Of a stretch of 64,000 nt of DNA, positions 32,867 to 61,378 are shown one piece after another. The notes below the pieces were generated by a model. That model saw only the letters and a list, made by a program, of their open reading frames with translations, searched no databases and was not told the origin of the DNA. Positions within the stretch are counted from its first letter, which is position 1, and the number at the start of each line of letters is the position of its first letter. This DNA is from Candidatus Methanoperedens sp. (GTDB lineage Archaea > Halobacteriota > Methanosarcinia > Methanosarcinales > Methanoperedenaceae): assembly GCA_012026835.1 (NCBI GenBank), contig VEPN01000012.1, forward strand, positions 1 to 64,000, given 5' to 3'. Made by a program: the position numbers and the translations under genes.

Positions 32867-32929
32867 GAGAACCTGATCGGTTTGTTAATAAAGAAATTTG
32901 GCATTCTAAGATTGATCCGGTAAAAATTC

Positions 32930-33727: not shown

Positions 33728-33813
33728 TTTAGCATTGTATATATCATTTTATAGATAAGAGTTATTGCCAAAACCATAAGGAATTTTTGTTACTTTTTTA
33801 ACACTAATTAAAC

Positions 33814-38900: not shown

Positions 38901-38984
38901 ATAGATTCCTTTTTAAGTCTTCTTTTGACTTTATGGATATATTATTTATTAACCAAATTAATAAATATAAACTTATTACATTTA

Positions 38985-39659: not shown

Positions 39660-39739
39660 TGTTTACCTTCATGCTATAATTTCATCGGATTAGATATCAT
39701 TTTGGTTTTCGATCTGTAATTTTATTTAGTATTTCATAT

Positions 39740-40996: not shown

Positions 40997-41326
40997 ATTT
41001 CCTTAAGAAAAACAACGAACAGATACGAACTTATATTATTAGAGTTCGTTGGTGTTCGTTTTAGTTCGGTGTTAATTTCGAGTTCATTTTGCTGCTATTC
41101 CTATCCATTATTATTTAGTTGTTAATTTTTTAAAATTAACATTACAATTTAATAAATTTCGAGACGATAAATCTGCATTTACTAGCGTTCATCTACGGTT
41201 TGGTTTTCTTATGAATGATTTACTATTATTTGATAACATAATTATAAAGCTTATCTTTGATATCCGATACTTTGAATCTTTTTTTAGCATTTTGTAGTTG
41301 ATCGGGATTTGATGGCTGGAACAAAA
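40997..41326. other. Intergenic region between exporter ATPase and permease genes
   Basis: About 330 bp without a gene, unusual for a pair that is normally adjacent and coupled. The first 75 bp hold repeated GAAC/GTTC words in both directions: AACGAAC (41014-41020), ACGAAC (41025-41030), then GTTCGTT (41044-41050), GTTCGTT (41054-41060) and AGTTCGG (41063-41069), so two inverted pairs about 13-35 bp apart just before the ATPase start. They could form a hairpin or bind a regulator. The rest is AT-rich with nothing recognised. Confidence 0.45.
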
Positions 41327-42088
41327 TCAAATCTCTTCAGCAAACCTCCGGGATAGTCGCTTGAATATCCATGATCCGAATATAAATAACACACCTCCAA
41401 ATATTATTACAAGGGTAATATCCATGAATCCAGGCAGAGAACCCTTTAACAGGATATCCCTGTATATCCCAATTAACCTCGTTACAGGATTCAACATATA
41501 ATAAGATAAAAATCTTTCCGGGATCACCTCTATTGGATAAACTATAGGAGTGACGAAAAAGCCAATCTGGATGACCACTTCCCATATCTGGGCAAGATCC
41601 CTGTAATATACGTAAAGCGCTGCCAGCGCCAGTGAAGCACCATATACGATGAAGAAATAGAGGATATGAAAAACCGGGAACAAGAGAAAGGTAATAGATA
41701 AAGAGGCGCCCATTAATACCAGGAGTGGTATCAACACAAGGAATTCAAGAAATGAGCTGACAAGGGCCGATATCACAGAACTTATTGTAAGTATCTCCCG
41801 CGGGATGAATATCTTTGTCACAAGCCCTGGTTTCCCGACAACAGAAGTCATGGCGGTCGATGTGCCTATAGCAAAGAAACGCCAGCCTGTAATGCCTATC
41901 AGGAGGTATGGCGCAAAATTTTCCTGGGTGGATTTGAAAACATTACTGAAAACAAAGAACAGGACAATCATCATAAGCAGGGGATTCAGCATCGACCATG
42001 CGAATCCAAGCACAGAACCAGAATATTTAGTCTTAAGATCGCTTACGACAAGGTTTTTTATCAATTCTTTATGTTCAAAAATATACAT
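41327..42088 (-). CDS. Polysaccharide ABC exporter permease (Wzm-like)
   Basis: A 253-residue ABC-2 family permease with six membrane helices. It starts KELIKNLVVSDLKTKYSGSVLGFAWSMLNPLLMMIVLFFVF (core DLKTKYSGSVLGFAWSMLNPL), the marked N-terminal amphipathic helix and first helix of TagG/Wzm proteins. The second half has YYRDLAQIWEVVIQIGFFVTPIVYP, the family's periplasmic-gate segment (core YRDLAQIWEV). Partner of the ATPase at 39740. Gene composition is not as AT-rich as the glycosyltransferase island. Confidence 0.92.
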   Translation of the reverse strand: MYIFEHKELIKNLVVSDLKTKYSGSVLGFAWSMLNPLLMMIVLFFVFSNVFKSTQENFAPYLLIGITGWRFFAIGTSTAMTSVVGKPGLVTKIFIPREILTISSVISALVSSFLEFLVLIPLLVLMGASLSITFLLFPVFHILYFFIVYGASLALAALYVYYRDLAQIWEVVIQIGFFVTPIVYPIEVIPERFLSYYMLNPVTRLIGIYRDILLKGSLPGFMDITLVIIFGGVLFIFGSWIFKRLSRRFAEEI

Positions 42089-42105: not shown

Positions 42106-42723
42106 TCATACCAATACTCCAAAATATATCACTAATATAATTAATATAATAATAGATACCAGCAGAGCCAAATCGATCATTTTTACCAGTTTTTCCTCTC
42201 TTTCCTTACTATTTTCAATAACAGATACAATAAAATCATTTATAGGTCTCCACACATCTTCTGGATTGTTCTTTTCAAAATCCTCGATCGCCTGACCGCC
42301 TTTGGAAGTGAGCACACAATACTGGAAATATTTTACATATCCTTCCTGGATGAGTTTATAGATATGCTTCTCTATAACGATTGTCCTTATCTGGAGTGTT
42401 TTTGAAATCTGCCTGTTGGTCTTAAAGCCATATGTTACGGATTTAAGGATTGCATAATCCACTTCACCGAACCCTTTTTCATCAGCTCTGGCTATGTCAC
42501 CCTTTTTATATTCGCTTTCTTTTGCCAGTTTATCCCTGAGATTATCAGATAAAGCTTTTCTTGTTTCCTCTGGAGGATAAGTAATCTCGATTTTTTGTTC
42601 AGTCTCTTCCTTTCCCCCTGATATCTTTTTTTCCACTGGCTTTTTCTTAAACCACAGACTATCATCCATGATAAAATCCAGTGCTTTCTTTTTTCTGATG
42701 TCTTCGGGACTTTCAGTACTCAT
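42106..42723 (-). CDS. Tail-anchored winged-helix-like protein
   Basis: A 205-residue protein. The first 85 residues are charged and probably disordered. Residues about 88-150 suit a winged helix (DYAILKSVTYGFKTNRQISKTL, IEKHIYKLIQEGYVKYF, LTSKGGQAIEDF). The C-terminus ends with one membrane helix (LALLVSIIILIILVIYFGVLV) and no tail, so the protein is tail-anchored with its DNA-binding-like domain in the cytoplasm. It overlaps the MinD-like gene by 4 bp (ATGA); the two proteins are likely partners. The wing domain may serve protein contacts instead of DNA binding. Confidence 0.7.
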   Translation of the reverse strand: MSTESPEDIRKKKALDFIMDDSLWFKKKPVEKKISGGKEETEQKIEITYPPEETRKALSDNLRDKLAKESEYKKGDIARADEKGFGEVDYAILKSVTYGFKTNRQISKTLQIRTIVIEKHIYKLIQEGYVKYFQYCVLTSKGGQAIEDFEKNNPEDVWRPINDFIVSVIENSKEREEKLVKMIDLALLVSIIILIILVIYFGVLV

Positions 42724-43457
42724 CGAATGAACCTCTGAAAGATGCTTTTTTTCTCAGGTATTCCGCATATTTTCTTTGAAATCTTCATTATTGCTTTTGC
42801 AGAGGATGAACCCGGTTTTAGTAAAATGAGCGGCTTCCTTGCATCTCTTGCCTTAATTATCGCTTCGTCCTGCGGGATAAGGCCAAGCACCGGCAGTCCC
42901 AGCTTTATGCCAATATCATTATAAACACTCTTTTTATATTTGTTCACAATAATACCTGTGACGCTAATACCTGCAAGAGCTGTTGCAGCTTTGACCTTTT
43001 GGGCATCTGATATAGAAGCCGGGTCGGGATTGACAATAAGTATAACCTCATCAGAGTATGTCATCGGAAGCATGCTCAGCTTGGATAAGCCTGCCGGGAT
43101 ATCCAGGATTATAAGCTCGTACTCGCTGTCTTTTAACTCTGAAATGACATTTCCCAGTTTATCAAGGTCCACGTTCTGCAGGGCCTGGAGTGAAGAACCG
43201 CACGGCAGTATATCCAATCCCATCTGGATTGTATAAATTGCACTCTGGACATCTGAGGTACCATTGAGTACTTCAAGGAGCGTAATTAGCGGCTTCTCAA
43301 GGCCAGTATATAAATCCAGGTTTGGCAGCGATATATCAGTATCCACGACAAGGACTTTCTTATTTAATGATGCAATCGCAAAACCTATATTCAATGCAAC
43401 GGTTGTTTTCCCAACTCCACCTTTTCCTGAACCCAGGGCAATTATCTTTGCAGCCAT
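42720..43457 (-). CDS. minD: MinD/ParA-like ATPase
   Basis: A 245-residue deviant Walker ATPase: GSGKGGVGKTTVALNIG at the N-terminus, VDTDISLPNLDLYTGLE (MinD-specific position) and ELIILDIPAGLSKLSML as Walker B, and NPDPASISDAQKVKAA. MinD proteins bind ATP, dimerise on the membrane and position cell-surface or division structures. Archaea carry several paralogues; the exact role here is unknown. A C-terminal amphipathic stretch FQRFIR could be the membrane-targeting tail. It lies between a CARDB-type surface protein and the tail-anchored winged-helix gene. Confidence 0.88.
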   Translation of the reverse strand: MAAKIIALGSGKGGVGKTTVALNIGFAIASLNKKVLVVDTDISLPNLDLYTGLEKPLITLLEVLNGTSDVQSAIYTIQMGLDILPCGSSLQALQNVDLDKLGNVISELKDSEYELIILDIPAGLSKLSMLPMTYSDEVILIVNPDPASISDAQKVKAATALAGISVTGIIVNKYKKSVYNDIGIKLGLPVLGLIPQDEAIIKARDARKPLILLKPGSSSAKAIMKISKKICGIPEKKSIFQRFIR

Positions 43458-43461
43458 AATA

Positions 43462-44787
43462 TCACTTCAATTTTCTTCTTAAATATAGTCTTATTATAAA
43501 TATAAAGATAACAACTATTGAAAGTCCGATTATTATTACAAGTTGTGGGGTTTTCTCTTTTTTTTGTACACCCGGTTCTTCAGGAGGAGAGATAACAGGG
43601 GTAACTGTAACCGATTCGACAAAAAAAATCTTGCTCAGATTTGATTTCCCGACTGTTACCCTGTATGCACCAAGGTCTCCTTTTGTAATATTGAATTTAA
43701 CGTCTCTTATTTCTGAGTAATTTAGCCAAACGTCTTTAGTTTCTTCCAGCATGTCATTGATGTATAACTCTACAGGTTGAGATCCATCCTGGCCAATATT
43801 TTCAACAGTAACTGAGATAACCACCGGCTTATTTGGTTCAACGCTTAAGTTATCTATCTGTAAATCTTTTATATCGAAAGTAGTCGGTAATTCAATCTTT
43901 TTTCCTGAGCTTACCTCAAATGTAGTAAAGAGATTCAATCCTATTGTATTACTTCCTGTTGGAACTATCTCAAGTGTATGATTTCCTAAAGTTTCCGAGG
44001 AAATCACAAATTCAATCGAGCGGGTGCTAAAACCTTCAATCTCAACCGTAACATTATCTATTTGTTTATTATCCAGTAACAGGGACAGGGATGTTGAACC
44101 TTTTTCATAAAAATTATTTACCACACTGGCGCTGACATGAATTGCCTCTCTCGGGGCTACGCTTGTTTTATCGAGTTTGATATTTTCTACCCTGAATCTG
44201 TCAAGCGGATATTTGCTTGCGTATTTATCAATATAAAAAGTTTTTGTAATGTTTATAATCTGTCTGGACTTTTCAGTTTGGGATAGATTAAGGACATCTC
44301 CCCTGCTCATGACAGGTACATCCGGTTTACTGCTTCCATTCAGATATGAGGTAGTAACATCAAGGTAATATCTGTCCATAATAGATGCATTCAGGAGATC
44401 AAATAAATGAATCTCTGCGTTATAAACCCCATCTTCCCAGTCTGCTGGCACTTCTCTTGAGTAGATAAGAAAGTCATTTTCCCGATAATCATGATATCTG
44501 TTGCTATATGCTGCTGTATCTACTATATTATCATTGGAATCCTTGATGATGAATACATAATCAACAGCCACCTCGCGCCTGTGATTTATACCATCAGTTT
44601 CCGCATATATTTGTATAACGCTACCCTGCGGAAATCTGTCGTTCCAGTGTAAATCATAATCTTGCAAACCCCTGACATTATAAACCAGCCTGGCATATCC
44701 ATTATCTATTGCCAGTGAAGGAACAGGCAATACATAAAACACCATTATTATGATGAAAATTATAATTATTGCCGGGTGGTACTTCAT
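43462..44787 (-). CDS. CARDB-type surface protein with C-terminal membrane anchor
   Basis: A 441-residue exported protein: signal peptide MKYHPAIIIIFIIIMVFYVLPVPSLA (quoted in short as MKYHPAIIII...PSLA), an N-terminal beta domain (HWNDRFPQGSVIQIYAETDG), then two CARDB-like adhesion domains near 230-310 and 320-400 (FRVENIKLDKTSVAPREAIHVSASVVNNF; LQIDNLSVEPNKPVVISVTVENIG, each in part), and a C-terminal helix with basic end RLYLRRKLK. The frame is open to 44907, but a TATA-like CATATAAAG box (44809-44817 on the plus strand) centred about 26 bp from ATG 44787 suggests a leaderless transcript from 44787 and gives a normal signal peptide. Confidence 0.75.
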   Translation of the reverse strand: MKYHPAIIIIFIIIMVFYVLPVPSLAIDNGYARLVYNVRGLQDYDLHWNDRFPQGSVIQIYAETDGINHRREVAVDYVFIIKDSNDNIVDTAAYSNRYHDYRENDFLIYSREVPADWEDGVYNAEIHLFDLLNASIMDRYYLDVTTSYLNGSSKPDVPVMSRGDVLNLSQTEKSRQIINITKTFYIDKYASKYPLDRFRVENIKLDKTSVAPREAIHVSASVVNNFYEKGSTSLSLLLDNKQIDNVTVEIEGFSTRSIEFVISSETLGNHTLEIVPTGSNTIGLNLFTTFEVSSGKKIELPTTFDIKDLQIDNLSVEPNKPVVISVTVENIGQDGSQPVELYINDMLEETKDVWLNYSEIRDVKFNITKGDLGAYRVTVGKSNLSKIFFVESVTVTPVISPPEEPGVQKKEKTPQLVIIIGLSIVVIFIFIIRLYLRRKLK

Positions 44788-44982
44788 ATAGTGGAATATC
44801 CGAATTTGCATATAAAGCTTTTGAAAAAAAACAATGAACCTCAATATGAATATGCTTATTAATATTTTAATTAACTTAATAATTCTAAAATCTGATCTTT
44901 CGGGCATTCTTTGTTATATGATGACTCCTGAAATCTTCTTGAAATCTACCTGGTAGCTTCTGTAAACTTTTTCTCTTTGAAG

Positions 44983-45972
44983 TTATTTTTTCCAAACATA
45001 CCCGGATTCCTGCTTTTTTTCATCATCCCGTAACTTTTGTTCGATTCGGGCGAATATTGCATCAAGCGATTCTCTTATCATTCCTCTTTGTTGTAGGGCG
45101 AAAAATTCGCTTCCTGTGGTTTCCTGTTTATTTGAAATAATAATGGGCAGGCTGCCTGTGGTTGCATATACTGCCCAGACATAATAAGCAAAAGTATACA
45201 ACCCCACTGCTACATACATGGCCGCCATCAGGACATTATTAGCATTTAAAAGAGTCCCTAAGAGCATAACAGTTATTGGTATCACAAGAATAAGGAAAAA
45301 AACTGCTGTCCATGCGGCAGTTTCTTTCCAGAGATTATATTCAGCGGTAATGAATCCCCACCACATTACAAATACTAGAAGAACACCATATGGAACTACT
45401 CCTCCAAGATTAAAATTCAACAGGAACATGAAAGCAGCCATGGTTATTGTAATCAGAAGTATAAACTTAATTGTGAATTTTATAGAGCTTCCGACTGCAA
45501 TGGATTTAGCCGTTATTTCTTCTTTGTACTGTTCTTTTAATAACGTTTGAACTTTTAGGTCCAGGTCATATATCTTATCAAGAATAATGTTCGCGCCGAC
45601 ATGTGCCTGTGCAATGTTTTCGATCAGCGGCTGCAATCTGGTATAAAGGCCATCCTGGAACGCCGTATCGATTAATAATTCGTTGACAATCCGTTTTTTA
45701 AAAGCATTAATAATATAATATATTGAAGTCAGAGAAACCATAATAATTAAAAGATCAATTAAACTATATATAATATCTAATTTGACAAATAAATCGATTA
45801 AAAGCGATAAACTTGAAAATATTAAAATGGCTGCTGAAATGATCAGGGCGCTGACCAGGCCGATCTTTTCAAAAAAAGGCAGATTTTGGCCGGGACGTGG
45901 GGATATATCCTCATTAATGTCAAGTAAAGGATTCTTCATTTTATTAGGGATATTGTTGTGTCCCATTAACAT
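44983..45972 (-). CDS. Six-helix membrane protein of unknown function
   Basis: A 329-residue protein with six membrane helices in two groups (about 34-60, 65-90 and 165-190, 195-215, 220-245, 250-275) divided by a cytoplasmic coiled stretch around 100-160 (NIAQAHVGANIILDKIYDLDLK). The cytoplasmic C-terminus is helical and charged. No family recognised. The start is uncertain: ATG 45972 overlaps the cytochrome gene's end by 29 bp, and ATG 45966 or 45939 (MKNPLLDI) are possible. The setting in the cytochrome operon suggests an envelope role. Confidence 0.6.
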   Translation of the reverse strand: MLMGHNNIPNKMKNPLLDINEDISPRPGQNLPFFEKIGLVSALIISAAILIFSSLSLLIDLFVKLDIIYSLIDLLIIMVSLTSIYYIINAFKKRIVNELLIDTAFQDGLYTRLQPLIENIAQAHVGANIILDKIYDLDLKVQTLLKEQYKEEITAKSIAVGSSIKFTIKFILLITITMAAFMFLLNFNLGGVVPYGVLLVFVMWWGFITAEYNLWKETAAWTAVFFLILVIPITVMLLGTLLNANNVLMAAMYVAVGLYTFAYYVWAVYATTGSLPIIISNKQETTGSEFFALQQRGMIRESLDAIFARIEQKLRDDEKKQESGYVWKK

Positions 45973-47521
45973 ATATAGTTATTTGAGGTTCTGTTAATAA
46001 CTTAAAGTGTATCAAATTATTCGGAACCGGATTTCCTGTGTTTTTACACGCAATACAGAGATATGATTGGACAAAAGAAGGCTGTTGCGCCATTGAAGTT
46101 TCAATACCGCCCATTTTAAGGCTGTTGTAGGCAGGCGTCTGTAATGTCCCATCTATTTCTGCAAGCAGACTTCCTGATTTTCCATGGCAATCCATACAGG
46201 TTATTTTAATAGAGCCGTGGTTTATCGAATTAAACGGGTATGCGGGATATGGAGAAGTACCGTTATTATTCTGGGTAGCTGGCTTATGGCAGGATTTGCA
46301 ATATGAATTCAGATCTGTATAATTTGCATAGTTATGTTTTAGTTTCCACTTTTCATTGGAGTGACCGCCTGATATGACTGCCTGCTTTATATCTTCATGG
46401 CAGGATATGCAATCAACATTAGAACTGGCAGTGAGGTTGTGAGCTTTGCCATCCTGATATTTTGTTACCCTTACTTCTTTTGTTATTCCTATTGCAAGAT
46501 TTTGTATATTCCATGCGCCCGATGAATTCACTACATCCCATTCAATAAAGCTGGGTCTGCTATAACTGATATTATTATTGAAACTTGAATGGCATGAAGA
46601 ACATGCAATATTATTTCCTGTGGATATATTGGTATTGTTTGCACTCTGGATAAAAGCTATATGTGCGTCTGCTCCTGTCGGGTTATTTGCGTAAACAGCT
46701 GCGACCGGGGCTATAAATGTGTTGCCTTTCTGGTCTGTTACCTGTGCTGGTGTGGTTCCATGGCAGGTCAGGCATGAAGGTATGCTTGATGCATGGTATG
46801 TAGAAGAAAGCTGATGGCATGAGGAACATGAAAAATAAGTATGATGGAAAGAATTGTTAAGCTCAGCCCTTGTATTTAAATGGCATTTTTCGCATTCCAG
46901 GGAAGATGTCAGTGGAAATGAATGCTGGCCTATGGACTCGCTGGATTGTGCAAGTACAGGACCGGACAATTCATTATTTTTCAGATAATTTGATAGCTGC
47001 CATGTATCATCGCTGACTCTATTAGCGTTGAATTTATAAGTATCTGCATAAAGAATTGAAATAGAGAGTGATTTCTTTGTATGGCAGGATATACATGCCT
47101 CGTTCTCCCCTTTTAAAAAATTTGATGCACTTGCGCTGGATATAAAAGGGTTGTGTGATTCCTTATTAGTAGTGATATTTTCACCAAATATTTCTGCAAT
47201 CGGGGAGACCAGTGTATTCCCATTTACATCTTTCACCACCCTGGGAGGAGAACCATGGCAATCCAGACACCGGGGGCTTACCATGTTTCCGTGTGTAAAG
47301 TTCGAGCCTGCATTCAGGATATGGCAGGTCTCGCATGTTAAAGACAGGTGATGCGTTGAAGAATCAAGCTCCTGTCGTATATCTGCATGACATTTTGAAC
47401 AGGTCGAGGTACCTGTATCATAGAATGAGTGCTGGCCTGCGAATAAAGAATAAATCGATGGGATGGCGGTTATCCCAATCATCATAATAACTACAATAAG
47501 AAGAACATGTCTTAATTCCAT
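45944..47521 (-). CDS. Multihaem c-type cytochrome, 525 residues
   Basis: An exported cytochrome with 11 CxxCH sites and a final CxxCK (CIACK), so up to 12 haems. An N-terminal signal anchor (LLIVVIMMIGITAIPSIYSLFAGQ) is followed by two clear copies of a module of about 170 residues: the first has GQHSFYDT-CSKCHADIRQEL-CETCH-CLDCHG and the second GQHSFPLT-CEKCHLNTRAEL-CSSCH-CLTCHG, each ending in a CxSCH site. A third part holds the remaining sites (CISCHEDIKQ, CKSCHKPAT, CMDCHGKSG, CIACKNTGN). It probably passes electrons on the outer face of the cell. It shares its N-terminal GQH-x-x-YDT motif with the smaller cytochrome at 48307. Confidence 0.92.
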   Translation of the reverse strand: MELRHVLLIVVIMMIGITAIPSIYSLFAGQHSFYDTGTSTCSKCHADIRQELDSSTHHLSLTCETCHILNAGSNFTHGNMVSPRCLDCHGSPPRVVKDVNGNTLVSPIAEIFGENITTNKESHNPFISSASASNFLKGENEACISCHTKKSLSISILYADTYKFNANRVSDDTWQLSNYLKNNELSGPVLAQSSESIGQHSFPLTSSLECEKCHLNTRAELNNSFHHTYFSCSSCHQLSSTYHASSIPSCLTCHGTTPAQVTDQKGNTFIAPVAAVYANNPTGADAHIAFIQSANNTNISTGNNIACSSCHSSFNNNISYSRPSFIEWDVVNSSGAWNIQNLAIGITKEVRVTKYQDGKAHNLTASSNVDCISCHEDIKQAVISGGHSNEKWKLKHNYANYTDLNSYCKSCHKPATQNNNGTSPYPAYPFNSINHGSIKITCMDCHGKSGSLLAEIDGTLQTPAYNSLKMGGIETSMAQQPSFVQSYLCIACKNTGNPVPNNLIHFKLLTEPQITIYVNGTQQYP

Positions 47522-47548
47522 ATTATAATATTATCAATGCAAACAATA

Positions 47549-48271
47549 TCAATTTTGTGATGGTTTTTTCCTTACTGTAAGAAGGATATACAGGAACAGG
47601 CAGAAAGCCGCGATAACATATCCATAGAGCTTTACGACCTGGAAAAATAACTGGTATTTCCTGTAATCATTCCCGAATGGCCCGAGATCCTGGTTCCTGT
47701 CGCTTACTATGAAATAGCTCCCGTATCCTTTAAGGACAATCGGTTTACCGCCTATCAGGATAGCCTTCCCGATTATATCCCTATTCTTGAGCCTCCACCA
47801 GTCTTTCTGATTTGAGGCATCACCTTTTGTCACTATCCCGTCTTTTGTAATATATAGTATCCTGTGGGCATATGGTAAATTAGTATCCGGCCGGTTGAAC
47901 ATTATAATATCGCCAACCCTGTAGGTATGGTCGATGTTCTGCATCAGTACAAGGTCGCCCCTGCTGAATGTCGGTACCATGCTCCCTGACACCACGGCTG
48001 TGAAAAAAATTACTTTTGAAGCAACAGCGAACATGATAAAAACCACGACAACCAGTATCAGGCTTTCTTTGAAAATCATTTTCTGGGTGTCCTCAGGCCG
48101 TTTTCCGACAAGGCTGATAAAACTTTTCTCCCTGTTCCTTTTATAGAACTCCCGATATTGAATTTTTACAGGTTCTGTTATGTCGATATGGTGTGATACT
48201 CTCAGATAAATTAATACCAAAAATATGGATATTGTTAAAAACAGCAATATTAGGTTTATTGGAATTAACAT
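47549..48271 (-). CDS. Type I signal peptidase (archaeal, SipW/Sec11-like)
   Basis: A 240-residue membrane protease. The catalytic Ser lies in VSGSMVPTFSRGDLVLMQ; the general base in archaeal enzymes is His, seen in LPYAHRILYI; GIVTKGDASNQKDWW is the third conserved box. It has two N-terminal helices (residues 4-24 and 67-95) and one C-terminal helix (about 208-230). It removes signal peptides of exported proteins. Here it lies between two cytochrome genes, all on one strand, so it may be dedicated to cytochromes and surface proteins of this block; a general role is equally possible. Confidence 0.92.
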   Translation of the reverse strand: MLIPINLILLFLTISIFLVLIYLRVSHHIDITEPVKIQYREFYKRNREKSFISLVGKRPEDTQKMIFKESLILVVVVFIMFAVASKVIFFTAVVSGSMVPTFSRGDLVLMQNIDHTYRVGDIIMFNRPDTNLPYAHRILYITKDGIVTKGDASNQKDWWRLKNRDIIGKAILIGGKPIVLKGYGSYFIVSDRNQDLGPFGNDYRKYQLFFQVVKLYGYVIAAFCLFLYILLTVRKKPSQN

Positions 48272-48306
48272 AAAAAAAATAAAAAGGGAAAATAATTTCC
48301 CTTCAT

Positions 48307-48999
48307 TTATGGAATTGTTACTGTAGCATTACCTGTACCATCCGCTTCGCCTTCTGTCAGCACTGTCGCAACACCGGTTGCTACATAGTTGCCGACATTC
48401 CAGCTGTGTGCACTTCCCGGCCCTCCGGGCTGTGTCTCTTCAGCAGTCAGGGACATGCCGGTTCTCTTTGTCCATGTAATGTCAACCGCAACGTGCGTGT
48501 GGCATGCGATGCATGCTTCATTTGCTCCCTTTAAGAAAGCTACATCAGTTGTGTTTGCCTGCTCGACAAAGGGTTTGTGCACTTCATCAGCACCAGTTAA
48601 GCCAATCAGTGCATTATTACCGCCGCCACCATTTCCATCATGACAGTCAATGCATGCAGGTGCTGCTGCGGCATGGAATGAATCAACGGTTCCAGCATCA
48701 TTGGCGTTGGCCTGGTCAATACCGCCTTCGTTTGGCCCAGTGGTCATGTGACATGCCTGACATCCTCCATCAGTGCTCTGAGCTCTGTGGAAGCCATTTG
48801 TTCCATCGCCGGCTAAGCCTTCAGTGGAATATATCTCCTGAACTACGTCAGCGTGGCATTTTGCACATGGTACGCCATTGTCAACAGTCGTTGTATCATA
48901 CCAGTTATGCTGTCCTACGAACAACGCAAGTGTCTGTGGCAAAGCAAGCAGACCAACGGCCAGTATTCCAATCCCTATTAATAAAGTCTTATTTTGCAT
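48307..48999 (-). CDS. Tetrahaem c-type cytochrome, 230 residues
   Basis: An exported cytochrome with four CxxCH sites (CAKCHADVVQE, CQACHMT, CIDCHDG, CIACHTHV). The signal anchor LLIGIGILAVGLLALPQTLALFVGQHNWYDT carries the GQH-x-x-YDT mark shared with the 525-residue cytochrome. Many additional His residues could serve as distal haem ligands. No C-terminal anchor. The frame is open to 49026, but ATG 48999 has a perfect AGGAGGTGA ribosome-binding site 8 bp before it, the best of this window, which suggests high expression. The GGATAGGA word precedes that site. Confidence 0.92.
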   Translation of the reverse strand: MQNKTLLIGIGILAVGLLALPQTLALFVGQHNWYDTTTVDNGVPCAKCHADVVQEIYSTEGLAGDGTNGFHRAQSTDGGCQACHMTTGPNEGGIDQANANDAGTVDSFHAAAAPACIDCHDGNGGGGNNALIGLTGADEVHKPFVEQANTTDVAFLKGANEACIACHTHVAVDITWTKRTGMSLTAEETQPGGPGSAHSWNVGNYVATGVATVLTEGEADGTGNATVTIP

Positions 49000-49095
49000 T
49001 TGTTTTTCACCTCCTTTCCTATCCATTTTAATTTACCCAAATTTGGGTATAATTTGGGATAATATTTAATTAGCCTTGATATGTTATATATCTTT

Positions 49096-49536
49096 CTATT
49101 TCCAGATAATATTTTTAGTGACAAAACCAACTGTTTCACCCCTTCTCGTAGTTTTATTAATGCTTGTCAGATATATGGAAACATGCACTGTATCATTGGC
49201 CTGCGGGTAGTGTTTTTCATCAAAACCTACATTGAACTTGTATGTGCCGCTGCCATTAAAAGGCATCATTTCCCATGGGCCTATGGTGCCGTTCTTGCCT
49301 TTCAATACAGTCGTTCTTGCTCCTATGGCAGGGAACTTTGCCTGGGTCATTCTCGGCCTCTGCAGATAGTTCACAGCGCCCTGCTCGACAGTGAAATTCG
49401 GGTCCGGCTGGATCTGGCCGTCTTTTTCTATAAATGTAATATTGACCTTAACGACAGGTACTTCACTCAACGGATTTCCTATACATCCTGATATTATTAT
49501 TCCGGCAAGGAATAGCAAAATTATGGCTGTTCTCAT
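49096..49536 (-). CDS. Small lipoprotein in the cytochrome block
   Basis: A 146-residue protein with a lipoprotein signal (LLFLAGIIISGCIGNP, Cys17). The mature part is beta-rich: VVKVNITFIEKDG, GPWEMMPFNGSGTYKFNVGF, DTVHVSIYLTS. It may be an Ig-like domain that docks on the membrane next to the cytochromes. It starts a few bases after the 228-residue cytochrome gene ends. No family recognised. Confidence 0.72.
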   Translation of the reverse strand: MRTAIILLFLAGIIISGCIGNPLSEVPVVKVNITFIEKDGQIQPDPNFTVEQGAVNYLQRPRMTQAKFPAIGARTTVLKGKNGTIGPWEMMPFNGSGTYKFNVGFDEKHYPQANDTVHVSIYLTSINKTTRRGETVGFVTKNIIWK

Positions 49537-49539
49537 AGC

Positions 49540-50226
49540 TCACCTTATTAATGCAAATATTCTCGATATTATCTGTCCTATAGTGGGATACTCCTTAATT
49601 GTTTCTGATTTACTCACGGCTGCTGATCTGGACATGTTCGAAAGATTGGATGGCAGCTCCAGTTTACTGATAAATTTCTCAGCGAATTCTCCGTGGCATG
49701 CTTCACACATCTTGTCAAGCCTTTTTCCATGCACAATATGGGGATTTTCCCCGTGGCAGTCAGAGCAGGCTGTTCTTTGCGGTTTTAGATAGGAGCCATT
49801 TACGTAAGTATGACAGTCTAAACATGCGGTTTTGCTCATCACCCTGTGGAAATCTACTGCCGTCACGTTCTTTTCAGATTTTGTTCCCACATGGCATTTG
49901 ATGCAGACAATATCTTTATGGATTTTGGAGATACTGGCTATCTCTATCTTGTAAGCGGTTTTTGTATCCTTTGGCCTGTTCCCGATGGCATGGCATGCTT
50001 TGGTACATCCTGAAGATATTTCTTTGGCCCGCTCATTGCCAAGGAGCGTATAGTGACATGGAATACAAAAACTTCCCGGATGCCAGTTCCCTGTCAACCC
50101 ATCCTTATAATCCGGCCTTTCATAAGCATCTGCCTGCCCGGCCATCAAGATAAAAGAAAACATCGCAAGGGAAATGATTAAAATAACAATAGTGGGCTTG
50201 TTCAGCAGGATCTTTATTCCGGGCAT
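49540..50226 (-). CDS. Multihaem c-type cytochrome, 228 residues
   Basis: An exported cytochrome with five CxxCH sites (CIPCH, CIKCH, CLDCH, CSDCH, CEACH) and one CxxxCH (CTKACH), so six likely haems. A signal peptide (IVILIISLAMFSFILMAGQADA) is cut probably at ADA-YE. The layout CLDCHTY...CSDCHGENPHIVHG-KRLDKMCEACHG resembles NapC/NrfH- and cytochrome c3-like modules, but a membrane anchor is lacking apart from a weakly hydrophobic end (IGQIISRIFALIR). First of the three cytochrome genes of this block. Confidence 0.92.
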   Translation of the reverse strand: MPGIKILLNKPTIVILIISLAMFSFILMAGQADAYERPDYKDGLTGNWHPGSFCIPCHYTLLGNERAKEISSGCTKACHAIGNRPKDTKTAYKIEIASISKIHKDIVCIKCHVGTKSEKNVTAVDFHRVMSKTACLDCHTYVNGSYLKPQRTACSDCHGENPHIVHGKRLDKMCEACHGEFAEKFISKLELPSNLSNMSRSAAVSKSETIKEYPTIGQIISRIFALIR

Positions 50227-50273
50227 ATGGTAATATTTCTCATTTAGTTCTTATCTCTTTAATCATTTATATT

Positions 50274-51914
50274 TTATCTTTTAAAATTTTTATTCCTTAT
50301 TATTATTGTCATCATAATTAATATTACAGAAACCACATATCCCTGGAATCCCGGCGATGATTTTGTTGCAGTCGGCTCCGGAGCTGTGGTCGATGTGGCT
50401 TCGGAAACCTCGGTACGTTTCGGGTTCGCTGAGACAGTGGCGACAGTGGATTGTGGCAGTTGCGATGTTGCCTTGCTCCTGACCTTTATAACAAGCTCAT
50501 TCGAACCTGTCCTTTGCGTGTATCGCTCGTCCTGATAAAGGAACTGATCAAGTACTGTTGCCTTTGCAGGAGGAACACTGAAATCACCCGGCTCGGTTGT
50601 ATTAACCGTATAAGAAAATACTGTCGAATTTCCCGGACGAATCACCAATGTATCCAGAACAGCTTTATATTTATCAGATGGCAATGAATATCTCACTGGT
50701 ACACTATCATTCAATTTGACTATCGCCGTGGAATCTCCGATATTCCTGGCATCTAATCTGATAGTTATATTATCACCTGTTATTGCAGTTTCGGGAATTG
50801 CAGATTTTGTCAGGATCACATAAGGCCCGTTCACTATCAGTTTTGCAGGCTTTGTATTATAGTACAGTTCATCCCTGTATCCAATAATTGAACTGCCGGG
50901 CTGCAAATAATATGTTCCGGGTTTTTGAGGTACTACTTTATAAGATACTGTTTTCAGTTCATTGGGTCCGAGGGCAAAATTCCATGAAAGGTTCATATCA
51001 AGTGGTTTAAGTCCTGCAGGAAGGCTGTCTATAAGGCTCACATTTTCAATTTTCTGGCTGAGGTTGTTCTTGATGCTGATCGAGACAACAGCAACGTCTC
51101 CAATATAGACTTTTTCAGAGACATATTTTCTAATATCTATTATATTCCCTATTTGGGGATTTACCTCAATATTGATGGAATCCCTGGTCTGGAAAGCTTT
51201 TCCAAAAGCATCATTACCCCGCACCTCTGCAGAAACCGGATATAATTTTCGCCCTCCTGTAAATGGTGCCTGGAAACGGACAGTAATGACATCGGATTCA
51301 TTCCCTGCTCCAATCTCATATATTTCGTGATTCAGCTTTTCTCCATACAGTAAGGGAAGGGATGAATTGATTTTTAAAGTGATATTCTTCAACTTTGCCT
51401 TGCCATCGTTCCTTATTGAAAAATTTATGGAAATCTCGGAACCCGGTATAAATGTTCGCCTGGTTATTGATTTATTATTGAGCACCATACTTTTGGGGAT
51501 GATCGAAATTTTTGGCAAAGGGCTGCCTGGCACTCTTGTCAGTATCCTTGCCCACTGGTCCACAACCACATTGAGCCCGTGCCCCGCGCTGATGTTACCC
51601 GTAACTTCCTTTAGGTTTATTACGGTAATATTGATCTTTTTATCAACATCAAAAGATTCGTTGATACGTGTAATATTTCTTGCTATGATATTGCGGTTCG
51701 CATCATAAACCGTTATCAGTGCAGAATTATCGTAAAAATCCGATGCTTCTATCAGAAAGCTTCCTCTTGCAAAAGATTCCTTCAGCCTGAGAGTTTTTTC
51801 CTGCGGATCGACCCATTCTGTCTCGTCTGCAAATGCCGGAACGACTCCGAAATATATTATAATAGATATCAACATTAAAATATATATAAATTTCATCAGA
51901 TATGTAAATTTCAT
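50274..51914 (-). CDS. Surface protein with repeated beta domains and PGF-like tail
   Basis: A 546-residue exported protein: signal peptide (FIYILMLISIIIYFGVVPAFA), an N-terminal domain of about 130 residues, then beta domains of the CARDB/DUF11 type (SEISINFSIRNDGKAKLKNITLKI; VAVVSISIKNNLSQKIENVSLIDSLPAG; ITIRLDARNIGDSTAIVKLNDSVP, each in part), a Thr/Ser/Pro-rich linker and a C-terminal helix that starts SSPGFQGYVV and ends in NKNFKR. The PGF before the helix and the basic end resemble the PGF-CTERM sorting signal. The ATG at 51914 overlaps the aglB stop by 1 bp (TGATG) with GGTGA before it. Confidence 0.78.
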   Translation of the reverse strand: MKFTYLMKFIYILMLISIIIYFGVVPAFADETEWVDPQEKTLRLKESFARGSFLIEASDFYDNSALITVYDANRNIIARNITRINESFDVDKKINITVINLKEVTGNISAGHGLNVVVDQWARILTRVPGSPLPKISIIPKSMVLNNKSITRRTFIPGSEISINFSIRNDGKAKLKNITLKINSSLPLLYGEKLNHEIYEIGAGNESDVITVRFQAPFTGGRKLYPVSAEVRGNDAFGKAFQTRDSINIEVNPQIGNIIDIRKYVSEKVYIGDVAVVSISIKNNLSQKIENVSLIDSLPAGLKPLDMNLSWNFALGPNELKTVSYKVVPQKPGTYYLQPGSSIIGYRDELYYNTKPAKLIVNGPYVILTKSAIPETAITGDNITIRLDARNIGDSTAIVKLNDSVPVRYSLPSDKYKAVLDTLVIRPGNSTVFSYTVNTTEPGDFSVPPAKATVLDQFLYQDERYTQRTGSNELVIKVRSKATSQLPQSTVATVSANPKRTEVSEATSTTAPEPTATKSSPGFQGYVVSVILIMMTIIIRNKNFKR

Positions 51915-54145
51915 CAATTCACCTTAATGATATTTCCACTAAGTACATCGTTTTCAGACACATTGACGGAGATATTCGAATTGCTAAATGTAAGCTCATA
52001 ATTTTTCAATAACCGGGTTTCATAATGGCTATCACTGGAATATGGTACCACAAGTTCAAAATATCCTTTCTCATTAGCTTTTATTTCCTGGATGTATTCG
52101 AATTGTCTGTTCTGGTTGGTAATTATCTTTCCTGAAATATAAGCTGTTTCATTAGATGATGCATTTCCTGTTATTCTTGCTCCTTTTACATATTCAAAAA
52201 TTTTAATATTCTGGGTTGGCTTATCAAACAGGTTATAATGCTTTTCTTTTGACTCGTATATCATCCTGTAACTCTTAAGCCCGTTACCGTCAAATACATG
52301 CAACCTTGAATACATTGTCTGGAAATAATTTTGATGTGGAAGATTATATTTATCTAAGTACATGCCGGGATTCTTATCTGCAAAATCTGCAACTGCAAAA
52401 AATGTCCCAGTTATTACAAGCTGGTTTCCCTGCATATACTTGTTCAATCCCATTCTCCTATCAACGATTACATACCTTGCCTTCCGCGCATCCATTATTG
52501 AACTCGCCAATGTCTCGTTATCCGCCAGATAAAACCTTGCTGCCTCGTCTCCTCCTATCTGGAAATTATTTGCAACTACCGGCCTTTTAGAGATATACAA
52601 TATCCAGTTCCCATAATCCCACCATGTCATTATCCCGTATTTCGGATTATTTCCTGTTTCAGGCGTATTTTGTTCCAGCCATACCAGGGAATCATACCAG
52701 TCATCCGAAGGTTTGGGCGGGTAACCGGACAATTGATACGATACTGCAATATTCGGGATAAAAAGAACGAATATTAAAACGATGCTGACAGCAAAAGTTA
52801 TCATTTTATTACGTGATTCTGAATGCCTGGTTCTCTCCAGGACTTCGTATATGGAAAATCCCGTCAGTATTGCAATATTTATCGCAAGCATATAAGTGAA
52901 CCGTCTCTGGGATAAGGCGAGGATGAAGTTAACCAGCGTCCATATGGCAAAGAATAATTTTCCACTATCAATCCCATTCCTGTTCGAATACAAAAACCAT
53001 ATTAATCCTATTATTGCCACATAGAAACTAAATGTAAAAGAGTACCAGACCGGGTTTTTATCCCACTGCCATCCAAGGAATATCCCGTCGTAGGTGTAAA
53101 AAAGAGGCTGGGCCTCGCTTATCTGTTTTAATACAGGTGCATCCCTCAACAGATATCCGATTCCCCCGGATATGCTTTGATAGAAGGATGGAATGGCCAG
53201 GATGAGAAATAAAAGGAAAAGAATTATTATTATACCTATTGAAACTGGATAAAAATACCATTTCTGTTTTTTCATAAAGCTGGATATCGCCCCGAAGAGA
53301 AGGATTACGGCTGCTGAGATAACCAGGTAGATTAGCTGAAAATACGAAAGTGTTGCCGTCGTGATGGTTTTCTGCCACGGGGTCCATAGATAAAAAACAA
53401 GCATAATTAAAAGCGCAGTCGAGAACGAAATTATCCCTGCTCTTACAATGTAATTTGATGGTGCACCGGATTTTTTATCAAGAATGAACTGGAGGGCAGA
53501 ATATGACAGGAGTATTCCGATAAATATCGGAGCCCCTATCCATGTGAGCAGGGAAATCCCAATGAAAATCCCGGATAAAATGGCATACCTGGATGATCCC
53601 TTTAATGATCTTATAAAAAATAGATATGCTAAAACCGACAGCAACACCTCGGCAATATGATGGTCTGTAAATCCAAGAAAAGATATCTGGGCGTGGGCAG
53701 GCATTACTGCAAGTAAAATCGAACTGTATATAGCGATTTTCTCATTAAAAATTTCTTTTGCTATATAATATACCGCAATTACGGAAAGAACACCCAGCAG
53801 GACGGGTATAAATGCGCCTGTTAATTCAACAAGATGCACGTCGGGTTTTCCAAGACCCACGATAATTGATAACAATGCAATCCCCTGGTCAAAGAGCGGC
53901 GGCCAGCCCACAGTGGCGCCGTAAGGATAATTGATATAAGGATCAAACAAAAATGTTTTCGGGAACATCCCAATATACGAGAAAACCCTCCACATATGAT
54001 AATAGGGGTCAGTTTCGAGAAACACTATCCTCCCCTGTTCGAAGACCTGGGAATATGTAAAAAGCCTGACAATCAGACTTATTAAAATAATTATTAACAA
54101 ATAAATTACAGCATTATCAATTTTAATCTGGTTTTTTTTTGTCAT
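51914..54145 (-). CDS. aglB: Oligosaccharyltransferase AglB (STT3 family)
   Basis: A 743-residue archaeal oligosaccharyltransferase. It moves the lipid-linked glycan to Asn of N-x-S/T sites on exported proteins. The first DxD-like metal site is seen in FLETDPYYH after helix one; the second in FTDHHIAE; the catalytic WWDYGNWI lies near residue 510; the C-terminal domain follows from about 530. Some 13 membrane helices span residues 10-450. It is the first gene of a long minus-strand block with surface proteins and cytochromes that are rich in N-x-S/T sites. Confidence 0.95.
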   Translation of the reverse strand: MTKKNQIKIDNAVIYLLIIILISLIVRLFTYSQVFEQGRIVFLETDPYYHMWRVFSYIGMFPKTFLFDPYINYPYGATVGWPPLFDQGIALLSIIVGLGKPDVHLVELTGAFIPVLLGVLSVIAVYYIAKEIFNEKIAIYSSILLAVMPAHAQISFLGFTDHHIAEVLLSVLAYLFFIRSLKGSSRYAILSGIFIGISLLTWIGAPIFIGILLSYSALQFILDKKSGAPSNYIVRAGIISFSTALLIMLVFYLWTPWQKTITTATLSYFQLIYLVISAAVILLFGAISSFMKKQKWYFYPVSIGIIIILFLLFLILAIPSFYQSISGGIGYLLRDAPVLKQISEAQPLFYTYDGIFLGWQWDKNPVWYSFTFSFYVAIIGLIWFLYSNRNGIDSGKLFFAIWTLVNFILALSQRRFTYMLAINIAILTGFSIYEVLERTRHSESRNKMITFAVSIVLIFVLFIPNIAVSYQLSGYPPKPSDDWYDSLVWLEQNTPETGNNPKYGIMTWWDYGNWILYISKRPVVANNFQIGGDEAARFYLADNETLASSIMDARKARYVIVDRRMGLNKYMQGNQLVITGTFFAVADFADKNPGMYLDKYNLPHQNYFQTMYSRLHVFDGNGLKSYRMIYESKEKHYNLFDKPTQNIKIFEYVKGARITGNASSNETAYISGKIITNQNRQFEYIQEIKANEKGYFELVVPYSSDSHYETRLLKNYELTFSNSNISVNVSENDVLSGNIIKVN

Positions 54146-54203: not shown

Positions 54204-55211
54204 ATGAACAGGAAAGAGCCGCTTGTATCAATAGTAATAGTTAATTTCAATGGCGCACATTATCTAAATGAGTGCCTTACATCTATCGGGAATATAGATT
54301 ATCCGAATTACGAGATAGTGGTGGTGGATAACGCATCATCCGATGGTTCTATCGATTTTTTGAAAAATAATTTTCCCAGGGTCAGGATTATGCAGCTTCA
54401 GGAAAATCACGGGTTTGCGGAAGGCTCAAATATCGGAGCAAACCATGCAGCAGGCGAGTATATAGTTTTCCTGAACAATGATACAAAAGTAGAAAAGAAA
54501 TGGCTTTCAGAGCTTGTAAACGAAATCATATCCGATAGTTCCATAGCAACGTGCGGCAGCAAAATGTTCTTCTATGGGGGAGATACCATAAACCATGCCG
54601 GAGCCACTGTAACGCTTCTTGGTAATGGATATGATATAGGGTTTGGCCAGGCCGATTCAAAGGTATTCAATAATAAAAGACCCGTGGGGAGTACATGCGG
54701 GGGTTCCATGATAATACGGAAGGATGTTTTCCAGAGACTTGGCGGTTTTGATTCTGACCATTTTGCATGCGCCGAAGACGTAGATCTCTGCCTGCGGGCA
54801 TGGATTTATGGTTTCAAGAACATTTATGTTCCCTCTTCAGTTGTATATCACAAATACGGCGGCACACTCGGCAAAAGACAATCTGCCGGGAGGGTTTTTG
54901 TATGCCAGAGAAACAGGCTGGTAAATATATTGAAAAACTTTGAACCTGCAAATATTTTATTGGGATTTTGCTTATCAATACCATACGATAGTGTCAGGAT
55001 TTTTATGTTTTTATATAAAAAAGAAGTGAGGATTGCATTTTCATTAATAAAAGCTTATTTTGATGTTTTTTCATCACTTGTCAGGATTTTAGAGAAAAGG
55101 AAGATAATCCAGGAAAACAGGATTGTTTCTGATAGCGTCCTTATAAGGACGGGGATAATAACCCCGCTGGCCGAAGGGATCAGGGAGTTTTACAGGTTGA
55201 ATAGATTATAA
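54204..55211 (+). CDS. Family 2 glycosyltransferase, 335 residues
   Basis: GT-A fold enzyme: VSIVIVNFNGAHYLNECL, IVVVDNASSDGSIDFL, FLNNDTKVEKKWLSEL with NNDT in the metal-site place, GGSMIIRKDVFQRLGGFD and CAEDVDLCLRAWIYGFK as catalytic region. It is a paralogue of the enzyme at 30890 (same order of motifs and similar end KRQS-x4-F-x-C-x-RN). Divergent from aglB; likely adds a sugar (rhamnosyltransferase-type) to the N-glycan or a surface glycan. Its end overlaps the convergent next gene by 6 bp. Confidence 0.88.
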   Translation: MNRKEPLVSIVIVNFNGAHYLNECLTSIGNIDYPNYEIVVVDNASSDGSIDFLKNNFPRVRIMQLQENHGFAEGSNIGANHAAGEYIVFLNNDTKVEKKWLSELVNEIISDSSIATCGSKMFFYGGDTINHAGATVTLLGNGYDIGFGQADSKVFNNKRPVGSTCGGSMIIRKDVFQRLGGFDSDHFACAEDVDLCLRAWIYGFKNIYVPSSVVYHKYGGTLGKRQSAGRVFVCQRNRLVNILKNFEPANILLGFCLSIPYDSVRIFMFLYKKEVRIAFSLIKAYFDVFSSLVRILEKRKIIQENRIVSDSVLIRTGIITPLAEGIREFYRLNRL

Positions 55212-56879
55212 AGACTTACTTATATCAGACTTAAGAATATATATTAACGCTAAAAGGGTCGCTAAAGACAGCAAATACCCTGCGATAGTGACATTCCAGT
55301 CTATCTTTTCGACATTATATTGGGGCTTGAGTTTTTCCCTGACTTTTATCAGGTAAGTAGCGCCGTCCGGGTCATTAAAAATTTTATTTATTTCGAAATA
55401 TGTAGAATTATTGAACGTTTCGACCCCTTTCCTGTCAAGATCCGGGTTCCATATCATATTGGCAGGCCTGTGCAATGGGACATAGATATAATTTACACCA
55501 TACTTCCTGATAACATTCATTTTCTGCTCAACATCAGGTGAATTGATTATGGTGTTGCTATCATTGTCCCCAAAATACCTGTGCCCGAGCATTTGTGAAG
55601 ATTCACCTCCCAGGACATTTACGCCTGATAAAGCCGGAACCCAGAAACTATGCAGGCTTGGCGGGGCGGCCACAAGACTTCCCGGTGGAAGATATGTCAT
55701 ATATTCAAGCATTGAAAAATCAGAAGGATATCCCCATTTCCCGAAAGCAAAATCCACGTTCAACGCCCCGTACAGGGGAAAAACCAGTAATAACAGCAGT
55801 AAATACCCTTTATATCTGGAACCTGTGCTGTTCAGTTTAGCTATAAGGAGGAACATGATACTTCCTGCTGCAAGCAAAAGGGCAATATCAAAAAACTGGA
55901 AAAACCTGTCAACCCATAAAACCGGCCTGAAATAATAAGATGCTGATAGTATGAATGTGATAACCAGCCATACCGCGATCAGCAGTTTTGAAAAGTCCCA
56001 TTTAAACCTTTTAATAAAAAAGATTGCCAGAATCCCAAGAACCAGTGACAGGACGGTCGCGCTTGAAAAAGTTATGAAGCTCATAAGTGTCCAGGGCTGG
56101 TTAGTGAACGGCGCAGGTGCATAAAGAATCCTGTCGATAAAAGTCCCTGAGAATTGCATAACTCCGTGCCGCCATATCATCGGCAGCCAGAAGAAACTGA
56201 GAAGTAATCCTGTCACAAGGGGAATTAATACGAGAATCCTGAGCGCTTTTCTACTTTTGATACTGTAAATACCCACGGATATAATCAGTATTATAAAATA
56301 CACCAGAGCTGCTATGTAACTTGCAAGTACCACTAACGAAGAAATCATTGCAGTAATGGCCAGGTGACCCGATTTCCCATATTTTACGTAACGTATCAGG
56401 AAAACAAAAGCAAGGGGCATAAGCGTCATCGCCATTATCTGGGGATAATAATTCATATATCCAATAAGCTGGATCTTACTTACGGAAACTAAAAAAGCAG
56501 ATATGAGCGCCGATGTCTTGCTGCCTGATAACTCAAGTGAAAGATAATAGACTGTCAGTGAAAGCGCGGCTCCGCTTATAACTGCGACCCAGTTAGTGAT
56601 CGTAATAAGAGAGATTCCCGATAATTTGTGTAAAAATGCCACTGTATATGGAAAAAGCACCTGGTACTCGTAATATTCTCCAAGATTAAAATACGGATTA
56701 TACTGCGGGACAAGTGGAAACCATTGAAGGGCAGCCCGTGCATAAACTATGTTCTTTCCTGGATCATAATGAAAAGGCATACCCGGATCCACATGCACTC
56801 TTAAAAAAACAGATAATAAAAAGATGACTGCAAGAACAAGATATTCTTTCCCGAATATACTTAATCGGGCTGTTCTCAA
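55206..56879 (-). CDS. GT-C-type membrane glycosyltransferase
   Basis: A 557-residue protein with about 11-12 membrane helices. The first external loop holds HYDPGKNIVYARAALQWFP, where the Asp after the first helix takes the place of the catalytic acidic residue of GT-C enzymes (GT39/ArnT-like). The large C-terminal part (from about 370) contains an external domain with YLPPGSLVAAPPSLHSFWVPALSG and ends with a last helix near 525-548. Such proteins use lipid-linked sugars at the outer face. Overlaps the PQQ-repeat gene by 4 bp (ATGA). Substrate unknown. Confidence 0.75.
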   Translation of the reverse strand: MRTARLSIFGKEYLVLAVIFLLSVFLRVHVDPGMPFHYDPGKNIVYARAALQWFPLVPQYNPYFNLGEYYEYQVLFPYTVAFLHKLSGISLITITNWVAVISGAALSLTVYYLSLELSGSKTSALISAFLVSVSKIQLIGYMNYYPQIMAMTLMPLAFVFLIRYVKYGKSGHLAITAMISSLVVLASYIAALVYFIILIISVGIYSIKSRKALRILVLIPLVTGLLLSFFWLPMIWRHGVMQFSGTFIDRILYAPAPFTNQPWTLMSFITFSSATVLSLVLGILAIFFIKRFKWDFSKLLIAVWLVITFILSASYYFRPVLWVDRFFQFFDIALLLAAGSIMFLLIAKLNSTGSRYKGYLLLLLLVFPLYGALNVDFAFGKWGYPSDFSMLEYMTYLPPGSLVAAPPSLHSFWVPALSGVNVLGGESSQMLGHRYFGDNDSNTIINSPDVEQKMNVIRKYGVNYIYVPLHRPANMIWNPDLDRKGVETFNNSTYFEINKIFNDPDGATYLIKVREKLKPQYNVEKIDWNVTIAGYLLSLATLLALIYILKSDISKSL

Positions 56880-58357: not shown

Positions 58358-58380
58358 GATTTGATTACAGCATATCATAT

Positions 58381-59091: not shown

Positions 59092-59095
59092 GTTA

Positions 59096-60840: not shown

Positions 60841-60854
60841 TGTTCTTACCTCTT

Positions 60855-61328: not shown

Positions 61329-61378
61329 ATGTCCTGCCTTTTTATTTACAAGTGCTTATTTTTTAAATATGCTCAGGA

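Follow-up and report, generated by a model that had tools for sequence, protein, structure and literature searches.

A 64,000-nucleotide stretch of the Candidatus Methanoperedens sp. contig VEPN01000012.1 (hereafter the window) carries a minus-strand gene cluster whose ten-gene core is probably a biogenesis module for an extracellular cytochrome nanowire (ECN) of the type known from Archaeoglobus veneficus (AvECN). An earlier sequence-only reading had described a block of eleven genes with short gaps or overlaps, and all eleven open reading frames (ORFs) are present on the minus strand between 42106 and 54145, with intergenic gaps of -29 to +75 bp. The core runs from 50274–51917 down to 42106, and AglB, the eleventh gene, lies outside it. 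The block proteins were assigned to families using Pfam and NCBIfam model matches and counts of the CxxCH motif.

51914–54145, minus strand: AglB/STT3 oligosaccharyltransferase, 743 aa (TIGR04154, 601 bits); edge gene, outside the conserved core
50274–51917, minus strand: DUF11/CARDB-type surface protein with signal peptide and C-terminal PGF-type tail plus transmembrane (TM) helix (Pfam DUF11/bMG10, TIGR01451)
49540–50226, minus strand: secreted multihaem cytochrome cyt6, 5 CxxCH and 1 CX3CH (motif count; cytochrome c3-type Pfam matches)
49096–49536, minus strand: small lipoprotein, predicted beta-sandwich (lipobox SGC; no Pfam family)
48307–49026, minus strand: tetrahaem ECN homologue, cyt4 (phmmer match to 8E5G)
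47549–48271, minus strand: archaeal signal peptidase I of a module-specific subfamily (TIGR02228, 68.6 bits)
45944–47521, minus strand: larger multihaem cytochrome cyt11, 11 CxxCH and 1 CxxCK (motif count; 8E5G match at the N-terminus)
44983–45972, minus strand: six-TM membrane protein with invariant Trp residues (alignment; no known family; its first 29 bp are shared with the preceding gene)
43462–44907, minus strand: CARDB surface protein with C-terminal TM anchor at 456–474 (CARDB, 30.1 bits, cut-off 22.7)
42720–43457, minus strand: MinD-family ATPase with amphipathic C-terminal tail KKSIFQRFIR (TIGR01969, 208.1 bits)
42106–42723, minus strand: tail-anchored winged-helix protein (winged-helix matches below cut-off; C-terminal TM 187–205)

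The ECN homologue and its conserved neighbourhood

AvECN is the extracellular cytochrome nanowire of A. veneficus, solved by cryo-electron microscopy (PDB 8E5G; Baquero et al. 2023, as cited in PMC12954529 and PMC11176372). Judged by alignment, the tetrahaem protein of the window is a homologue of this nanowire subunit: phmmer matched it to chain A of 8E5G with E=2.6e-27, covering residues 13–233 in two stretches, and the four CxxCH motifs, the His of GQH, H118 and H150 are invariant between the two proteins. The fourth distal His takes a variable position in the comparison with AvECN and the Methanoperedens set contains an extra His between the first two haem sites; we infer eight possible ligands for the four haems. 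An ECN in Methanoperedens BLZ2 has already been published.

The larger cytochrome, cyt11, also matches 8E5G, more weakly (E=4.7e-11) and mainly at its N-terminus, and has an internal GQH repeat as well. Twelve haem-type sites had been ascribed to it and twelve are found, of which only eleven are CxxCH; the last is CxxCK in 6 of 7 orthologues, and three relatives encode short forms with 7–8 CxxCH. The CxxCK site resembles that of NrfA, and no NrfE-like lyase is encoded within the block. Similarly, the supposed hexahaem cytochrome, cyt6, has its six sites, as five CxxCH and one CX3CH with a spacing that varies among relatives. Orthologues of cyt6 occur in all module loci. Elsewhere, the window's genome encodes very large multihaem cytochromes, in two open frames, 5442 and 5615 aa long, with cytochrome c-type matches (G000:C86 at ~47300–49950 and G000:C49 at ~12900).

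Five other genomes of the Methanoperedens family (loci L033, L034, L035, L037 and L038) keep the ten genes in the same order: DUF11/PGF, cyt6, lipoprotein, tetrahaem cytochrome, peptidase, cyt11, six-helix protein, CARDB, MinD and winged-helix protein. The sequence-only reading had called for a check of neighbourhood conservation in relatives, and there the ten core genes are linked and ordered rather than scattered over the genome. A sixth locus, L036, retains nine of the ten in order and lacks MinD alone. Protein identity across the conserved-order loci is roughly 40–80%, and contigs of strains BLZ2 and LFW-24 are among the module loci. In L035 and L038 the tetrahaem gene is present as a tandem pair. 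A reduced module in L048–L050 consists of peptidase, six-helix protein, DUF11, tetrahaem cytochrome, a small protein of 144 aa and a giant cytochrome, in most cases with a 6-haem cytochrome as well.

Further variants were observed within the family. An opposite-strand gene for a 508–509 aa lipoprotein splits the module between the six-helix and CARDB genes at L033:14340–15869 and L034:3825–5351. Several Methanoperedens contain a second, paralogous module (L127–L132) with an ECN-like protein of 430 aa and 5 CxxCH, cyt6, a 4-CxxCH cytochrome, CARDB, peptidase and cyt11; the AglB orthologue of L132 is found a few genes from this second module. A stretch upstream of the module without MinD (L036:13328–19531) encodes two further multihaem cytochromes together with an F420-type FrhB/FdhB protein and a Fer4_5 membrane protein, which may form an electron-input arm.

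Outside the family we examined 57 loci of the six-helix gene, counting neighbours within 8 kb. The peptidase was found at 31 of them, DUF11/CARDB at 30, tetrahaem-type and cyt6-type cytochromes at 23 each, the lipoprotein family at 16, MinD at 13 (three of these matches being weak) and AglB at one. These counts are lower bounds, as many loci lie on short contigs, and they are not independent, as related genomes are among them. In 20 random 20-kb control windows, DUF11/CARDB and tetrahaem-type cytochromes were each found once, cyt6-type cytochromes, the lipoprotein and AglB not at all, and the signal peptidase, six-helix, MinD and winged-helix models gave zero matches.

These data bear on the alternative that unrelated surface genes have come to lie side by side by chance. 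Same-strand runs are common, and this one extends into glycan genes: the Wzm-type ABC gene begins 17 bp downstream of the lower edge and the minus-strand run reaches ~31955. At the upper edge the strand does change, to a glycosyltransferase family 2 (GT2) gene that diverges from the block on the plus strand at 54204. The one-strand block proposed earlier is thus bounded by a strand change at one end only, and as glycan genes prolong the run, we define the unit by conservation and not by strand. On that definition, order conserved at such protein identities in several genomes, together with nearly empty controls, refutes chance juxtaposition for the ten-gene core, and we give it next to no weight overall. 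A glycan island surrounds the module (31955–42088 and 54204–63645), with a Wzm/Wzt-type ABC exporter and several GT2/GT4 glycosyltransferases; RmlA-, RmlB- and RmlD-type sugar-nucleotide genes lie on the opposite side of the block from the Wzm/Wzt and glycosyltransferase run.

Coupling to the ECN-type cytochrome and the possible range of clients

Among 34 genomes of the family, the ECN-type cytochrome, the six-helix protein and the peptidase subfamily each occur in the same 29 (Fisher 3.6e-6 per pair) and are missing from the same five (G008, G016, G020, G023 and G028). Four of these five take four different positions in an RpoB tree; G020 had no RpoB match and was left off. All five still hold 3–19 cytochrome c3-type matches, so the trio tracks the ECN-type cytochrome and not multihaem cytochromes in general. 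For this control PF14537 was used in chosen genomes, since PF14522 at E<=1e-6 proved too strict (16 genomes). G028 is the sister of the window's genome (RpoB support 1.0) and is without the ECN-type cytochrome, six-helix protein, peptidase and linked AglB; as the closest sampled relative lacks all these genes, the region behaves like an island that is gained or lost whole.

Across 394 Halobacteriota genomes the ECN-type cytochrome was found in 60 and the six-helix family in 59, with both in 54, the six-helix protein only in 5, the ECN only in 6 and neither in 329 (p=1.7e-53, kinship ignored). Completeness is below 87% in 4 of the 5 six-helix-only and 5 of the 6 ECN-only genomes.

The six-helix protein has invariant W204, W205, W215 and W221. 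Its relatives also occur in clusters of signal peptidase, TM-helix protein, S-layer multihaem cytochrome (MHC) and CcmF (L097 and L107). Because these two loci reproduce the published peptidase/CcmF/MHC-B cluster, the family is, on this sequence evidence, the ‘8xTMH' family of Chadwick et al. (2022, PMC9012536), reported beside the signal peptidase in anaerobic methanotrophic archaea (ANME) and Ferroglobus/Geoglobus and absent from most methanogens. The window protein has six predicted TM helices, with about 8 in the L107 relative; it lacks the eight that define ‘8xTMH' and is therefore treated as a shorter homologue rather than as the identical type.

The same clusters favour a rival explanation, in line with the proposal of Chadwick et al. 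(2022), in which the locus is a general maturation cluster for large multihaem cytochromes, its peptidase and six-helix protein processing all MHCs with the ECN as one client. In L097 and L107, as in the published ANME arrangement, the pair stands beside S-layer MHC or MHC-B genes. The five Methanoperedens genomes described above argue against it: they have other cytochromes, yet neither the pair nor an ECN-type cytochrome, and the four of them in the RpoB tree are placed independently. We consider this explanation improbable, although it deserves more weight than chance.

The genome of A. veneficus itself (G108) offers a second view of the ECN module. The genome is recognised by its AvECN gene, which has the same length as 8E5G and an identical sequence in the aligned parts. 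This gene lies at ~76 kb, accompanied by a paralogue and a gene resembling cyt6. A row of machinery genes (six-helix protein, peptidase, a short winged-helix-TM protein, CARDB, MinD and a winged-helix-TM protein) is located at ~1645 kb of the 1902-kb genome, with no adjacent ECN-type cytochromes. Since the two halves are joined in Methanoperedens and in G418 (L096), the genome data suggest that the orphan machinery of A. veneficus may serve its nanowires.

Proposed roles of the module proteins

Signal peptidase I follows the (-3,-1) rule. ECN-type precursors have a hydrophobic segment ending LPxTx[SA]-[LM]FxGQHxWY, and because this junction fits the rule, a cut is predicted before LF, with Thr at -3 and Ser or Ala at -1. 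Of the 202 multihaem ORFs collected from the loci analysed, 92 have the signature of this signal/mature junction. The peptidase scores above the TIGR02228 cut-off of 51.85, S97, H136, D151 and D157 are invariant in the alignment, and the module subfamily is distinguished by extra N- and C-terminal TM helices. In wires built of OmcS or OmcE, the adjacent subunit supplies a His ligand to an interfacial haem (PMC12954529).

The MinD-family ATPase exceeds the TIGR01969 cut-off of 201.75 bits and has the deviant Walker A motif GKGGVGKTT. In 14 of 14 tested genomes with a clustered copy, that copy was the genome's best match among several MinD homologues. Its winged-helix partner combines a conserved N-terminal KK-x-hDhhMDD motif with a winged-helix domain and a C-terminal TM helix, and the motif is shared with Archaeoglobi (KKALDFIMDDSLWFKKK in the window, KKIIDVLMDDDTFIIKK in A. 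veneficus). Locus L036, which lacks the MinD gene, encodes a winged-helix protein without its N-terminal part, and the second winged-helix-TM protein of A. veneficus is also without the motif. We infer that the N-terminal segment contacts MinD. In some other Methanoperedens modules the peptidase and six-helix genes flank an AAA_22 ATPase (L091:8927–9820 and L087:1028–2077), which may replace MinD there.

The winged-helix domain, for which a DNA-related role is usual, raises the alternative that the two proteins are a membrane-tethered transcription switch for cytochrome genes, gated by the partner ATPase. This alternative concerns the positioning step and not the module as a whole. Matches to DNA-binding families are weak, all below cut-offs, and the amphipathic tail of MinD together with the N-terminal motif of its partner resembles MinD-type localisation pairs; a switch appears unlikely, if still a serious contender.

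The remaining core members are surface proteins. The DUF11/PGF protein has its PGF tail in 7 of 7 close orthologues; as a possible substrate of archaeosortase A it shows the motif and TM helix, and the NCBIfam scan gave no PGF-CTERM model match. The CARDB family adjoins the six-helix and peptidase genes in Archaeoglobi and ANME-1-like genomes. An AlphaFold2 model of the lipoprotein is all-beta (predicted local distance difference test, pLDDT, 84), and a fold search against the PDB returned only weak beta-sandwich matches, none at E<0.001.

AglB, at the head of the block, exceeds the TIGR04154 cut-off of 450 bits and has the WWDYG motif (WWDYGNW); it is the second STT3 of this genome. The sequence-only reading had seen in the block an assembly line for a glycosylated electron conduit, with AglB among its members. 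The conserved gene set for an extracellular conduit is borne out by the ten-gene core, but AglB does not belong to it. It heads the module and adjoins the DUF11 gene in the window and in L033, L034 and L037, and is absent from the module in L035, L036 and L038 and from nearly all other six-helix loci, the single case outside the family being L108. AglB orthologues of at least 60% identity occur in 6 other genomes, in 3 of them within the module and in 2 beside other cytochrome clusters, so within the family they favour cytochrome neighbourhoods; on the linkage counts we nevertheless rejected AglB as a core member. The gene sits at the border of the glycan-synthesis island that flanks it. Conservation of sequons gave no general support for cytochrome glycosylation: in cyt11 and cyt4 they are less conserved than other Asn (0.48 vs 0.60 and 0.27 vs 0.43), while those of cyt6 are better conserved (0.42 vs 0.03) in a comparison with only five other Asn. 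A dedicated line for a glycosylated conduit with AglB at its core is therefore very improbable.

For the ECN module, homology and presence/absence coupling come from the sequences directly, and the steps that follow draw on protein family and gene order. The ECN precursor and cyt11 would be exported with an unusual signal ending LPxTxSLFxGQH. The dedicated peptidase would cut before LF and free an N-terminal tail whose His6 could ligate a haem, perhaps in the next subunit, so that cleavage would license polymerisation. The Trp-rich six-helix protein may aid haem handling or export, and cyt11 and cyt6 may serve as feeders, adaptors or the base of the wire. Anchoring of the wire, or its guidance through the S-layer, might fall to the lipoprotein and the two Ig-like proteins with TM anchors, and MinD with its tail-anchored partner might time or place assembly at the membrane. 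AglB would glycosylate surface products generally.

Several observations weigh against a dedicated ECN module. MinD accompanies just 13 of the 57 six-helix loci outside the family, counting the three weak matches; MinD and the winged-helix gene are missing from many module loci, and genomes G057, G067 and G165 have no MinD at the module site. The ECN gene and the machinery locus of A. veneficus are far apart (~76 kb vs ~1645 kb), so their link rests on co-occurrence. The AlphaFold2 model of the six-helix protein is poor (pLDDT 57) and its fold is not usable. Finally, the peptidase/six-helix pair also lies beside giant S-layer cytochromes and CcmF (L097 and L107), and its clients may therefore be wider than ECN.

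A more far-reaching proposal, which we rate as somewhat short of an even chance, is that a dedicated, phylum-wide secretion and assembly system builds archaeal cytochrome nanowires. Its signal peptidase would be specific to nanowires and act on a signal class of its own (LPxTxSLFxGQH); the other components would be a membrane protein rich in Trp, anchored scaffolds of Ig-like type and, to place or time wire growth, a MinD ATPase with a tail-anchored winged-helix adaptor. The cluster provides a concrete parts list tightly coupled to the wire subunit, including the proposed wire-specific signal peptidase and signal motif. Because the same parts occur in A. veneficus, a nanowire maker available in culture, assembly becomes testable, and this bears on electron transfer from methane-oxidising archaea to minerals and partners. 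Part of it may already be noted in Baquero et al. 2023.

Comparison with known systems

The literature searched, with Baquero et al. 2023 outside its coverage, describes no archaeal machinery for nanowire export, cutting and polymerisation, and does not contain the full gene set, its presence/absence coupling to ECN or the MinD/winged-helix pair. Even so, the earlier statement that no named system is involved does not hold, as the tetrahaem protein falls in the AvECN nanowire family and the pair of peptidase and multi-helix protein has been published (Chadwick et al. 2022).

The likeness to AvECN lies in the tetrahaem homologue, with the same four CxxCH, the GQH start of the mature protein and the other invariant His. 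The differences are that in A. veneficus the ECN genes stand apart from the machinery, whereas here they form one cluster, and that a filament is known for AvECN, whereas the Methanoperedens module is known from its genes.

Chadwick et al. (2022, PMC9012536) described an ANME cluster of signal peptidase, 8xTMH, CcmF2 and MHC-B and proposed a role in maturation. The peptidase and membrane-protein families are the same. In contrast, the window cluster has no CcmF or S-layer cytochrome next to them; the genes found there instead are those for ECN, cyt6, the lipoprotein, CARDB, MinD and the winged-helix protein, and its membrane protein has six, not eight, helices.

The OmcZ/OzpA nanowire cluster of Geobacter, Methanoperedens and Borgs (PMC10874420, PMC11208441) likewise encodes a wire-forming cytochrome beside a processing protease. 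However, the peptidase of the block is a signal peptidase I and not a subtilisin-type OzpA, and neither an octahaem OmcZ-like protein (8 CxxCH) nor a subtilase was found among the block's Pfam and NCBIfam matches and motif counts.

MmcX is a tetrahaem ECN-like cytochrome of Met12 (Methanocellales) in the AvECN clade (PMC11176372). A Methanocellales contig (L090) has cyt4, signal peptidase, a cytochrome and the six-helix gene in a row; unlike the window, it is without MinD and the winged-helix gene in the stretch examined.

The window MinD, finally, shares its family and a membrane-targeting tail with MinD-type localisation ATPases. Among these, MinD4 of Haloferax positions the archaellum. The window protein differs in being linked to a tail-anchored winged-helix partner and to cytochromes.

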